From an uncultured cyanobacterium (lineage in GTDB: Bacteria; Cyanobacteriota; Vampirovibrionia; Gastranaerophilales; Gastranaerophilaceae), in assembly GCA_946545285.1 (NCBI GenBank), contig CAMNNA010000003.1:1-33946 (forward strand): 33,946 nucleotides of DNA, written 5' to 3'. Shown in pieces: positions 8,856 to 12,263 of the stretch. Within the stretch, counting starts at the first letter, position 1; each line of letters starts with the position of its first letter. The position numbers were made by a program, and so were the translations under genes. The notes below the pieces were generated by a model. It had not been told where the DNA came from. It saw only the letters and a program-made list of their open reading frames with translations, and ran no database searches.

Positions 8856-10400
8856 ATGAGCAATATTATTATTAAAAAGGGCGCAAAAATTTTAAACTTT
8901 TTGCTTGTATTTGTGTGTATAAGCAATGTTTGTTATTCACAAGAATGGAAAAACGATTTAAGAACAAAATTTTTGAATAACGACACGGTTATAATGGAGA
9001 TAAATATTCGGTCGTTTAATTCAAAGGATATAGATGGTGATGGGTTTATTCAAACTGAGAAAGGTGAAATTCGGGGGAATTTTTTAAACGCGATTAACCG
9101 ATTGGATGAATTAAAAAGTTTGGGGGTAAATACAATTCATATATTACCTATTACGCCTGTAGGTAAATTGAAGGCATTAGGAACAGCAGGAAGTTTGTAT
9201 TCTGCCTCTTCATTTTCATCTGTAAATCCGGAGCTTGCGGATTTATCAAGTAAATTAGATGTAAATTCTCAGGCAAAAGAATTTATTAAAGCAGCACACG
9301 AAAAAAATATAAGAGTAATTATAGATGTTCCTGCGTGCGCATCTTATGATTTATATATAAGCCGTCCCGAGTTATTTGTAAAAGGAAAGTTGGATGAGCC
9401 GGTATTGCCGTCTGATTGGACGGATGTTCGTTTGTTGAATTCGGGAGATGAAAATTTTATAAACCCTGATGTTTATAATTTATATAAAGATTTTGTGGAT
9501 TTGGTTATAGAGTTAGGGTCAGACGGAATAAGAGCGGATGTCGCTCACTCAAAAAGTGCAAATTTTTGGAAGGAACTTATAGATTATTCCAGACAAAAAG
9601 ATCCGGAGTTTTTATGGATTGCGGAATCATCTGATTCTTGGAGTGAATCAATAAGTCCGTATGCTGTGTTTACGCCCTATGATAAACTTTTAGAATCCGG
9701 ATTTGACGGGTATTACGGCTCATTTTTTAATATAAAAGATTGGAAAAATTCGCATGATTTATATAATCAAATATCAAATACTTTAAAAACTTTAAAAGAA
9801 TTTGAAACTAAAAAAAGCGTGATAGGGAGTTTTACAAATCATGACCAAGTTAGTCCTATACTGATAAACGGCCCTGAACTTAGTGATATGATTATATGGC
9901 TTAATGCTACGTTACCGCTAAATTCTTACTTTGTAGACGGATTTCAAACGGGTGATGATTATGTTTATCTAAACGGGAATAAAAAATCAAAAACTTCGAA
10001 TACTGATGATTACACATATTTTACTCATCATGGACAAATTGATATATTCAATTATTCAAGAAAACCGGGCGGAAAAAATATGTTTTTAAAAAATGATTTT
10101 ATCTTAGGGAATAATGTTAAATCAAGTATTTTAGAAGTACTAAATAATGGTAAATTTACTCCGATAAAAATAAATAATGATAAAATTTTTGCATACAGTT
10201 ATTCTTATAATAAAAAAACGGTTTTAACCGTTGGAAATCTTGATTTTAAAAATGAGCAAAAAGCCTCTTTTCATATTCCAAGAAATGCAAAAAATTTGAA
10301 TATGATTCCTATAAAAATAACAAATATGCCGGAGGTTAAAAAAGGTAAGTTTAATTCTGTTTTAAACCCCGGCGAAATTATTGTGTTGATATTTAAATAA
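8856..10400 (+). CDS. Secreted GH13 (alpha-amylase superfamily)-like protein
   Basis: N-terminal signal peptide; GIRADVAHSKSANFW (region II), LWIAES (region III), SFTNHDQ (region IV). Confidence 0.85.
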   Translation: MSNIIIKKGAKILNFLLVFVCISNVCYSQEWKNDLRTKFLNNDTVIMEINIRSFNSKDIDGDGFIQTEKGEIRGNFLNAINRLDELKSLGVNTIHILPITPVGKLKALGTAGSLYSASSFSSVNPELADLSSKLDVNSQAKEFIKAAHEKNIRVIIDVPACASYDLYISRPELFVKGKLDEPVLPSDWTDVRLLNSGDENFINPDVYNLYKDFVDLVIELGSDGIRADVAHSKSANFWKELIDYSRQKDPEFLWIAESSDSWSESISPYAVFTPYDKLLESGFDGYYGSFFNIKDWKNSHDLYNQISNTLKTLKEFETKKSVIGSFTNHDQVSPILINGPELSDMIIWLNATLPLNSYFVDGFQTGDDYVYLNGNKKSKTSNTDDYTYFTHHGQIDIFNYSRKPGGKNMFLKNDFILGNNVKSSILEVLNNGKFTPIKINNDKIFAYSYSYNKKTVLTVGNLDFKNEQKASFHIPRNAKNLNMIPIKITNMPEVKKGKFNSVLNPGEIIVLIFK

Positions 10401-10405
10401 AAATA

Positions 10406-12019
10406 TTAAAAATTATTTCTCATTATATTTAAGTCTGTTTTGGCATCTGTAGTCAGCTTAATGCCGTAAGTTTTGGTAAATAAATCCAATGTTGAAGGAT
10501 TTATTATTTGAGGCGGACAGTTGTTCATATATAAATTTTTTATGTTTAATTGATTTTTTAGGTTTATCAAATTAGAAAATCCCATAACAGAACAATTTGT
10601 ACAAATATAGGTGATTTTGTCGCTAAATTCTTTTAGTTTAGTTAAAATATTAAAAATGAGATTAACCGCAAGCGGGTCGTAATTTCCGATATAGATATTT
10701 AGTGAATTTTTCTTTTCACATTTATAAGAAAGAGTTAATACAGCTTCATCTTTATTCAAATTTGAATAAAAATCGTTAAAGTATTCTTTTCGAATTTCGG
10801 AATAATTATCTGTTCCGATAATGTATAATTTTTTGAATTCACCGGTTTTTAATTTTTCTATACAATTTTGAATTTTTGTTTCAAAATCATCCAAATTATA
10901 ACCTAATCTTAGTGACGGTTTGTTTTTTCCTGTTTTGAAACCTTTCGAATCTATAGCTGTTTTTATGAGTTCGGAATAGTCGTTGTTGTCAACTTTTGTA
11001 AGTCCTTGCGGGATAACATTATTGTTTGAGAATAATCTCCCTCGGTATAGATAATCAGTATTGTAACCGGCGTTTCCGGTTAAAAGTATTGCTCCCGGGA
11101 AGGTTGCAAAATCCAGTATCGCGTTTGAATTTCCTTTCCCGTAATGACCTTTTAAGTTGTCGTATTTTTGAAATTTTTCAAAAGCGTGCGCAATCAGTAA
11201 ATTTCCGTGTGTATAAATATCAATAGGAAGATCTTTTGATTGTTCCAAAATATTTAATAAGTCAAAAAAATTGTTTCCTGAAACTAAAATAGCTTTTCCT
11301 TTTCTTGTTGAAAGTGATACTTCAGTTTCTGATAATTTCCCGAATTGTTTTAGTGCGTGTTCACTTATTTTTATTGATAATTTATTATTTAAGCAAGACA
11401 GATTATTTAAATGTTTTTTTATATTTTCCGGTTTGTAATTCCGTTGATTATAAATATTTATTGCTTTTAAGACATTTATATAAATTTCAGAATCTATTCC
11501 GTCAAAATCATTTAGTTTAGATAGATTTGAGCATACACTTTTTATAACAAGAATTAGAATGTCGGTTAGACATCTTTGTTCCTGCGTTAATTTTTTATAG
11601 TTTGTAAAAAATAATTTTTCACCTTGAGATATTGTATTATTTATGGTCGTGTTTTCATTAAAGTCAATATTAAACTTTAAATTTAATGCTTTTTCGTTAT
11701 TTGTTTGGCATAAATTCAGATAAGTTTGTTTGACGTTTTTAAGCAGATAAAACTGTTTTGTTATAAGCGAAAACAGTTGATTTTCACTAAATTCGTTTAT
11801 AGGAATCAAACTTGCAATGTCATTAATTATTTCAAGATTAATACTTTTGTTGTCTGCGCCCATTTTATTAAGTTTTAAAATATAGTAAGAAGATTGCTTA
11901 ATAAAATAAAACAGAACTTCTTGAAGTGCAGCAATACTTGGCGCTAAAGAACAAGCTCCTCGCGAAGTGCATTCATTTGCATCTGTTGAAATGTTGTTTT
12001 GAAAATTATAATTATTCAT
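10406..12019 (-). CDS. Hybrid cluster protein (Hcp)-like protein lacking cluster ligands
   Basis: Hcp-like stretches ILVSGNNFFDLLNILEQS..DIYTHGNLLIAHAF..KGHYGKGNSNAILDFATFPGAILLTGNAGY; N-terminal ECTSRGACSLAPSIAALQEVLFY. Confidence 0.85.
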   Translation of the reverse strand: MNNYNFQNNISTDANECTSRGACSLAPSIAALQEVLFYFIKQSSYYILKLNKMGADNKSINLEIINDIASLIPINEFSENQLFSLITKQFYLLKNVKQTYLNLCQTNNEKALNLKFNIDFNENTTINNTISQGEKLFFTNYKKLTQEQRCLTDILILVIKSVCSNLSKLNDFDGIDSEIYINVLKAINIYNQRNYKPENIKKHLNNLSCLNNKLSIKISEHALKQFGKLSETEVSLSTRKGKAILVSGNNFFDLLNILEQSKDLPIDIYTHGNLLIAHAFEKFQKYDNLKGHYGKGNSNAILDFATFPGAILLTGNAGYNTDYLYRGRLFSNNNVIPQGLTKVDNNDYSELIKTAIDSKGFKTGKNKPSLRLGYNLDDFETKIQNCIEKLKTGEFKKLYIIGTDNYSEIRKEYFNDFYSNLNKDEAVLTLSYKCEKKNSLNIYIGNYDPLAVNLIFNILTKLKEFSDKITYICTNCSVMGFSNLINLKNQLNIKNLYMNNCPPQIINPSTLDLFTKTYGIKLTTDAKTDLNIMRNNF

Positions 12020-12263
12020 TTTTATTATCTTTCGCTAAGTGATTTTGTAAGTACTCAATAATTTCGTCTGATTCGTAAAGTCCTTTGTTGTTTTTTAAAT
12101 CATATAAAAACGGAACTTGATCTTTACCTCCGAGATGAAGAAGTTTCAATGCGTTTTCGTTATCGTTGGTGTTGAGTTTTTTATAATCAATTTTATTTTC
12201 GTCCATAAAATTCATAACTTTTTTACAATACGGACATGTTTCCATCATAAATAAGTCAAACAT
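12012..12263 (-). CDS. Glutaredoxin-like protein
   Basis: ETCPYCKKVMNFMDENKIDYKKLN...GGKDQVPFLYD; CPYC active site; overlaps the next gene by 8 nt. Confidence 0.88.
   Translation of the reverse strand: MFDLFMMETCPYCKKVMNFMDENKIDYKKLNTNDNENALKLLHLGGKDQVPFLYDLKNNKGLYESDEIIEYLQNHLAKDNKNE

Follow-up and report, generated by a model that had tools for sequence, protein, structure and literature searches.

The window analysed here (the whole stretch of 33,946 nucleotides from an uncultured member of Gastranaerophilaceae) encodes HcpL, a protein with the fold of the hybrid cluster protein (Hcp) that has none of the seven ligands of the hybrid cluster. HcpL is best explained as a functional protein inherited vertically from an Hcp ancestor. 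We put a probability of about 0.5 on the reading that it is a repurposed Hcp, in which the hybrid cluster was abandoned and another thiol centre is now present; both cofactor and function are unproven.

Fold and cluster ligands of HcpL

The open reading frame of HcpL (table 1) has no internal stops. An earlier, sequence-only reading of the window had placed this intact frame correctly and had described its product as related to Hcp along much of its length, which agrees with both profile and structure comparisons. HcpL matched the Prismane family PF03063 with an E-value of 1e-32 and 114 bits, above the gathering cut-off of 27. The match to NF003658 had an E-value of 8.5e-60, but its 202.9 bits are below the equivalog cut-off of 367, and the score against TIGR01703 (189.3 bits) is also below the cut-off of that equivalog (360.8). 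Membership in the Prismane/CODH superfamily, which is judged by a profile match above the gathering cut-off and the superfamily fold, is satisfied, and the equivalog-score criterion for Hcp (NF003658, TIGR01703, hydroxylamine reductase) is failed.

The AlphaFold2 model of HcpL had a mean pLDDT of 87.7 (89.8 with a deeper alignment). Residues 1–22, which hold C17, were modelled with pLDDT below 50, and the deeper alignment brought no improvement there. Using Foldseek, we found that the best matches of the model were Hcp structures over the full length (TM 0.76–0.81), including 1e2u (D. vulgaris Hcp, TM 0.81) and 7de4 (TM 0.78). In the predicted structure, the Hcp fold is intact. HcpL and Hcp (prismane protein, classes I–III) have in common the fold, the domain order and scaffold residues such as G248, Y269, P308 and G361, whereas HcpL differs in the absence of the hybrid-cluster ligands and of two of the four N-terminal Cys residues, and in the presence of two new ones, C476 and C501.

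Table 1. Positions of HcpL, its partner gene and key codons within the window
Feature	Position	Strand	Basis
HcpL (Hcp-fold protein without hybrid-cluster ligands, 537 aa)	10406..12019	(-)	ORF check, profiles, alignment, AlphaFold2, Foldseek
Glutaredoxin, 83 aa, CPYC, glutaredoxin-2/GST_N-like	12012..12263	(-)	PF13417, PF00462
C17 (= E. coli Hcp C18, ancestral N-terminal cluster ligand, retained)	11969..11971	(-)	alignment
C23 (= E. coli Hcp C25, retained)	11951..11953	(-)	alignment
N249, in place of hybrid-cluster ligand His249	11273..11275	(-)	alignment
N273, in place of hybrid-cluster ligand Glu273	11201..11203	(-)	alignment
A317, in place of hybrid-cluster ligand Cys317	11069..11071	(-)	alignment
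T403-D404, at persulfide Cys405 position	10808..10813	(-)	alignment
Y432, in place of hybrid-cluster ligand Cys433; Tyr in most of family	10724..10726	(-)	alignment
C476, new Cys at E. coli Hcp position 491, adjoining ligand E492	10592..10594	(-)	alignment
S477, at ligand Glu492 position; Asp in most of family	10589..10591	(-)	alignment
C501, new Cys at E. coli Hcp position 515	10517..10519	(-)	alignment

Multiple alignment of the window protein with E. coli Hcp (whose numbering is used for the ligands) and canonical relatives revealed that HcpL has 0/7 of the ligand set H249, E273, C317, C405 (the persulfide Cys), C433, C458 and E492, the corresponding residues being N, N, A, T/D, Y, none and S. 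This bears out the sequence-only reading, which had claimed that every hybrid-cluster ligand was lost. It had also stated that the first two Cys residues of the N-terminal [4Fe-4S] motif were gone and the last two kept; the alignment places the losses at C3 and C6 and retains C18 and C25 (2/4). No intact ligands were found elsewhere in the pocket, so the claim of ligand loss stands. A compensating ligand at the shifted Cys of the LSYKC motif (C434) was considered and rejected, as this residue is not conserved in relatives.

Among 119 members of the HcpL clade, retention was 2% for H249, 18% for E273, 1% for C317, 0 for C405, and 3% each for C433, C458 and E492, the last being replaced mostly by Asp. 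The N-terminal positions C3 and C6 were never retained, and C18 and C25 were kept in 89% and 88% of members, respectively. Compared with the other invariant columns of canonical Hcp (median retention 17%; Mann-Whitney p = 0.009), the ligand columns were lost more often, and numerous non-ligand pocket residues have been lost in the clade as well. One class of HcpL (L104–L113) is only 470–500 aa long and lacks part of domain 3, located between the GGCDG and QCND regions.

Distribution, selection and phylogeny

In one class-wide sample, the HcpL clade was detected in all 37 genomes of Gastranaerophilaceae, the family of the window. Canonical Hcp, which is encoded by a separate gene, scored above the cut-off in only 15 of the same 37 genomes. 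A search for canonical hcp or any other Prismane gene elsewhere in the genome of the window, which is 93% complete, found none. Of the 59 relatives that were searched, 53 gave a match. Matches to the clade profile were present in 365 of the 387 genomes of the order, with canonical Hcp matches forming part of this count. Scanning the GTDB species genomes yielded 80 loci, all of which came from an alignment query (a single-sequence query gave no match), and nearly all of their titles refer to Gastranaerophilales, Melainabacteria or gut/rumen bacteria. Two loci titled otherwise (Muribaculaceae and Brachyspira) probably come from mislabelled assemblies. The HcpL clade was seen only in the order Gastranaerophilales.

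The dN/dS values of close pairs within the HcpL clade were 0.04–0.23, similar to those of canonical Hcp pairs and far under 1, which argues against decay. Nearly all orthologs have an open frame, intact frames occur in dozens of independently assembled genomes, and orthologs with the same substitutions were found across the family. The sequence-only reading had favoured a repurposed protein or a different cofactor site over decay, and the shared losses, the open frames, the dN/dS values and the new Cys pattern support it; the evidence favours its "different cofactor site" half.

In the phylogenetic tree, canonical Hcp occupies one side of a branch with support of 100/100, and HcpL is found on the opposite side together with half-degenerate proteins of two other families of the order (L032, L039 and L048; L043 and L045). 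These non-canonical paralogs have lost part of the ligands, each with a different missing subset. Compared with HcpL, L032 keeps all four N-terminal Cys residues, E273, C317 and C405, and a Cys is already present at the C501 position. Unlike HcpL, none of the five has an adjoining glutaredoxin gene. They look like surviving intermediate forms.

Additional copies of HcpL were observed in a few genomes. Two different HcpL genes, possibly encoding a heteromer, are in tandem in G255 (L138:483-2090 and L138:2090-3685) and also in G307. In G006 (contig C17), a second, short-type HcpL (L040) is present beside the long type (L027), and may be a second paralog or contamination.

Conserved cysteines and a partner glutaredoxin

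Two features had been missed by the sequence-only reading: the new, near-invariant C476 and C501, and the glutaredoxin gene upstream of HcpL. C476 and C501 align with E. coli F491 and T515, respectively. Together with C17 and C23, they are invariant in 27 orthologs of the window's genus, and all four co-occur in 94 of 124 non-canonical rows of the alignment. When Cys residues were counted in the N-terminus and the two loops, at least four were found in 106 of 111 members (exactly four in 101 and more than four in 5), although these counting windows were picked after the alignment had been viewed. The remaining members include L100 and L112, each with only three; L208, L213 and L103 lack both loop Cys residues without visible compensation and keep the N-terminal pair.

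C23 has been lost on two separate branches of the tree, one a clade and the other L099. In both cases, a vicinal Cys was gained beside C501 (at position 502 in the clade and 500 in L099) and one N-terminal Cys stays, the pattern expected of a four-thiolate site. A strictly pairwise loss of Cys residues was rejected, since a clade that seemingly lacks both N-terminal residues keeps one, shifted in the alignment.

The loops bearing C476 and C501 are those that, in Hcp, carry the Glu ligand and contact the N-terminal cluster domain. When Mm HCP loses its N-terminal cluster, the loops around Glu434 and Trp461 move by about 5 Å (PMC10502027). By residue counting, Glu434 corresponds to E492, and Trp461 lies four residues after the C501 position. 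It may be inferred that C476 and C501 face the N-terminal Cys region and that the four thiols are mutually close.

The glutaredoxin gene is directly upstream of HcpL and overlaps it by 8 bases (12012–12019). Its product meets the criteria of a glutaredoxin, with a CPYC motif and scores of 35.9 against PF00462 (cut-off 22.9) and 46.8 against PF13417 (cut-off 22). The families matched by HcpL partner genes are the N-terminal domain of glutaredoxin 2 and glutaredoxin 3; in contrast to glutaredoxin 2, the window's partner is a single-domain protein and scores below the GrxB equivalog cut-off. Among the first 31 loci of the same genus, all but one have a glutaredoxin gene upstream of HcpL (30/31, the exception being a 5'-truncated HcpL); such a gene is also found in most related genera, with some genera lacking an adjoining one. 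In other genera, the pair usually has a UDP-GlcNAc 2-epimerase-like gene on one side and rpsG/rpsL on the other, and the constancy of this location is consistent with vertical inheritance. The clade with Cys-502 and L103 have a glutaredoxin-3 (Grx3) type gene instead, which means that the partner was replaced or that the pairing originated twice, and in either case a functional link is indicated. The genome also encodes a GCS2-type glutamate-cysteine ligase and glutathione synthase (GshB).

Partner glutaredoxins with CPYS instead of CPYC were observed in L130, L131, L133, L171, L195, L015 and L103, and in L103 such a protein accompanies an HcpL without loop cysteines. Elsewhere in the window, positions 8856–10400 encode a secreted-looking, very divergent protein of the alpha-amylase family, only part of which is covered by the Pfam match.

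Possible function of HcpL

Based on these data, we propose that C17, C23, C476 and C501 may form one site at the old interface between the N-terminal cluster and the Glu loop, an inference made without Cys-Cys distances. Such a site would most likely be a metal centre, with [4Fe-4S] or [2Fe-2S] ahead of Zn, although no metal data are available. The co-translated glutaredoxin, with glutathione from GCS2/GshB, could reduce or deglutathionylate this centre or help to load it. If so, the role of HcpL would likely be sensing or relay in redox, nitrosative or thiol stress and not reduction of NO or hydroxylamine. A more detailed scenario, which we hold tentatively and at somewhat less than even odds, is that the hybrid cluster was dropped and the accessory cluster moved by exchange of two N-terminal ligands for new Cys residues on loops that formerly served the hybrid cluster, resulting in a glutaredoxin-coupled redox protein retained by nearly the whole family, with intermediates in the sister families.

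Several points count against the four-Cys centre. The N-terminus bearing C17 is poorly modelled, and the Cys-Cys distances are lacking. The loop Cys residues are absent from three members and two more are at three Cys, and compensation rests on two events only. In addition, vicinal Cys residues are unusual for a single cluster, and the glutaredoxin does not adjoin HcpL in some genera.

The main rival is a metal-free thiol redox protein, in which C17/C23 and C476/C501 are dithiol/disulfide pairs cycled by glutaredoxin, the latter pair lying in the emptied hybrid-cluster pocket and serving in a nitrosothiol, persulfide or glutathionylation relay. We regard this as unlikely but a serious possibility. 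In most loci the partner glutaredoxin is of the dithiol (CPYC) kind, and L208, L213 and L103 have lost the two loop Cys residues together but retain the N-terminal pair. An S-nitrosylase activity has been suggested for Hcp itself (Seth et al. 2018, as cited in PMC10210160). On the other hand, loss of C23 is matched by a Cys beside C501, which suggests four thiols rather than two pairs, and C17 and C23 are old cluster ligands. Several partner glutaredoxins are of the CPYS type; such proteins are still able to act by a monothiol mechanism.

It is less probable still that HcpL is a non-catalytic pseudoenzyme or scaffold, using the Hcp fold as a binding or regulatory module with structural Cys residues (e.g., a Zn knot). 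No catalytic ligand remains, many of the invariant domain 3 residues of canonical Hcp have been lost, and a short class of 487 aa even lacks part of that domain, but the conserved pairing with glutaredoxin suggests a thiol-active function. A hybrid-type or other Fe-S-O cluster held in the old pocket by replacement ligands appears very improbable. Asp at E492 in most of the family, E273 in 18% of members and the mostly conserved H271, H278 and H292 around the pocket would be consistent with it; however, none of the seven positions is kept, the replacements vary (N/S/D/G at H249 and S/D/N/I at C405), and several genera have Asn or Gln in place of H271 and H292. A decaying gene or assembly artefact, for which nothing but the ligand loss itself speaks, is refuted by the low dN/dS, the intact frames in independent assemblies and the near-universal presence of the gene.

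A mononuclear His/Cys site in the old pocket (H271, H278 and H292 with C476/C501) was also considered and ranked low, since several genera have Asn, Gln or Phe instead of these His residues but maintain the Cys residues.

Among known systems, Ni,Fe-CO dehydrogenases, including C. hydrogenoformans CODH-V, have the superfamily fold in common with HcpL (TM about 0.5), and CODH-V illustrates that active-site clusters change within the Hcp/CODH fold (PMC10502027). However, CODH-V keeps an Fe-S-O cluster on an Hcp-like ligand set, whereas the HcpL pocket has no ligand set.

The metallocluster ligands have been described as conserved in all HCP classes (PMC10502027), and HcpL represents a large conserved branch without them. 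Our literature search found no mention of an Hcp branch without ligands and nothing that combined Hcp with Gastranaerophilales or with pseudoenzymes; its top ten results with Melainabacteria did not mention that group. Databases will tend to label HcpL as hydroxylamine reductase, an unlikely activity given the missing ligands. Intermediate steps seem to survive in two sister families, so that a tree could be used to trace how an Fe-S site was lost and possibly relocated, and the gene concerned is close to universal in Gastranaerophilaceae, a group of common but poorly understood gut bacteria.
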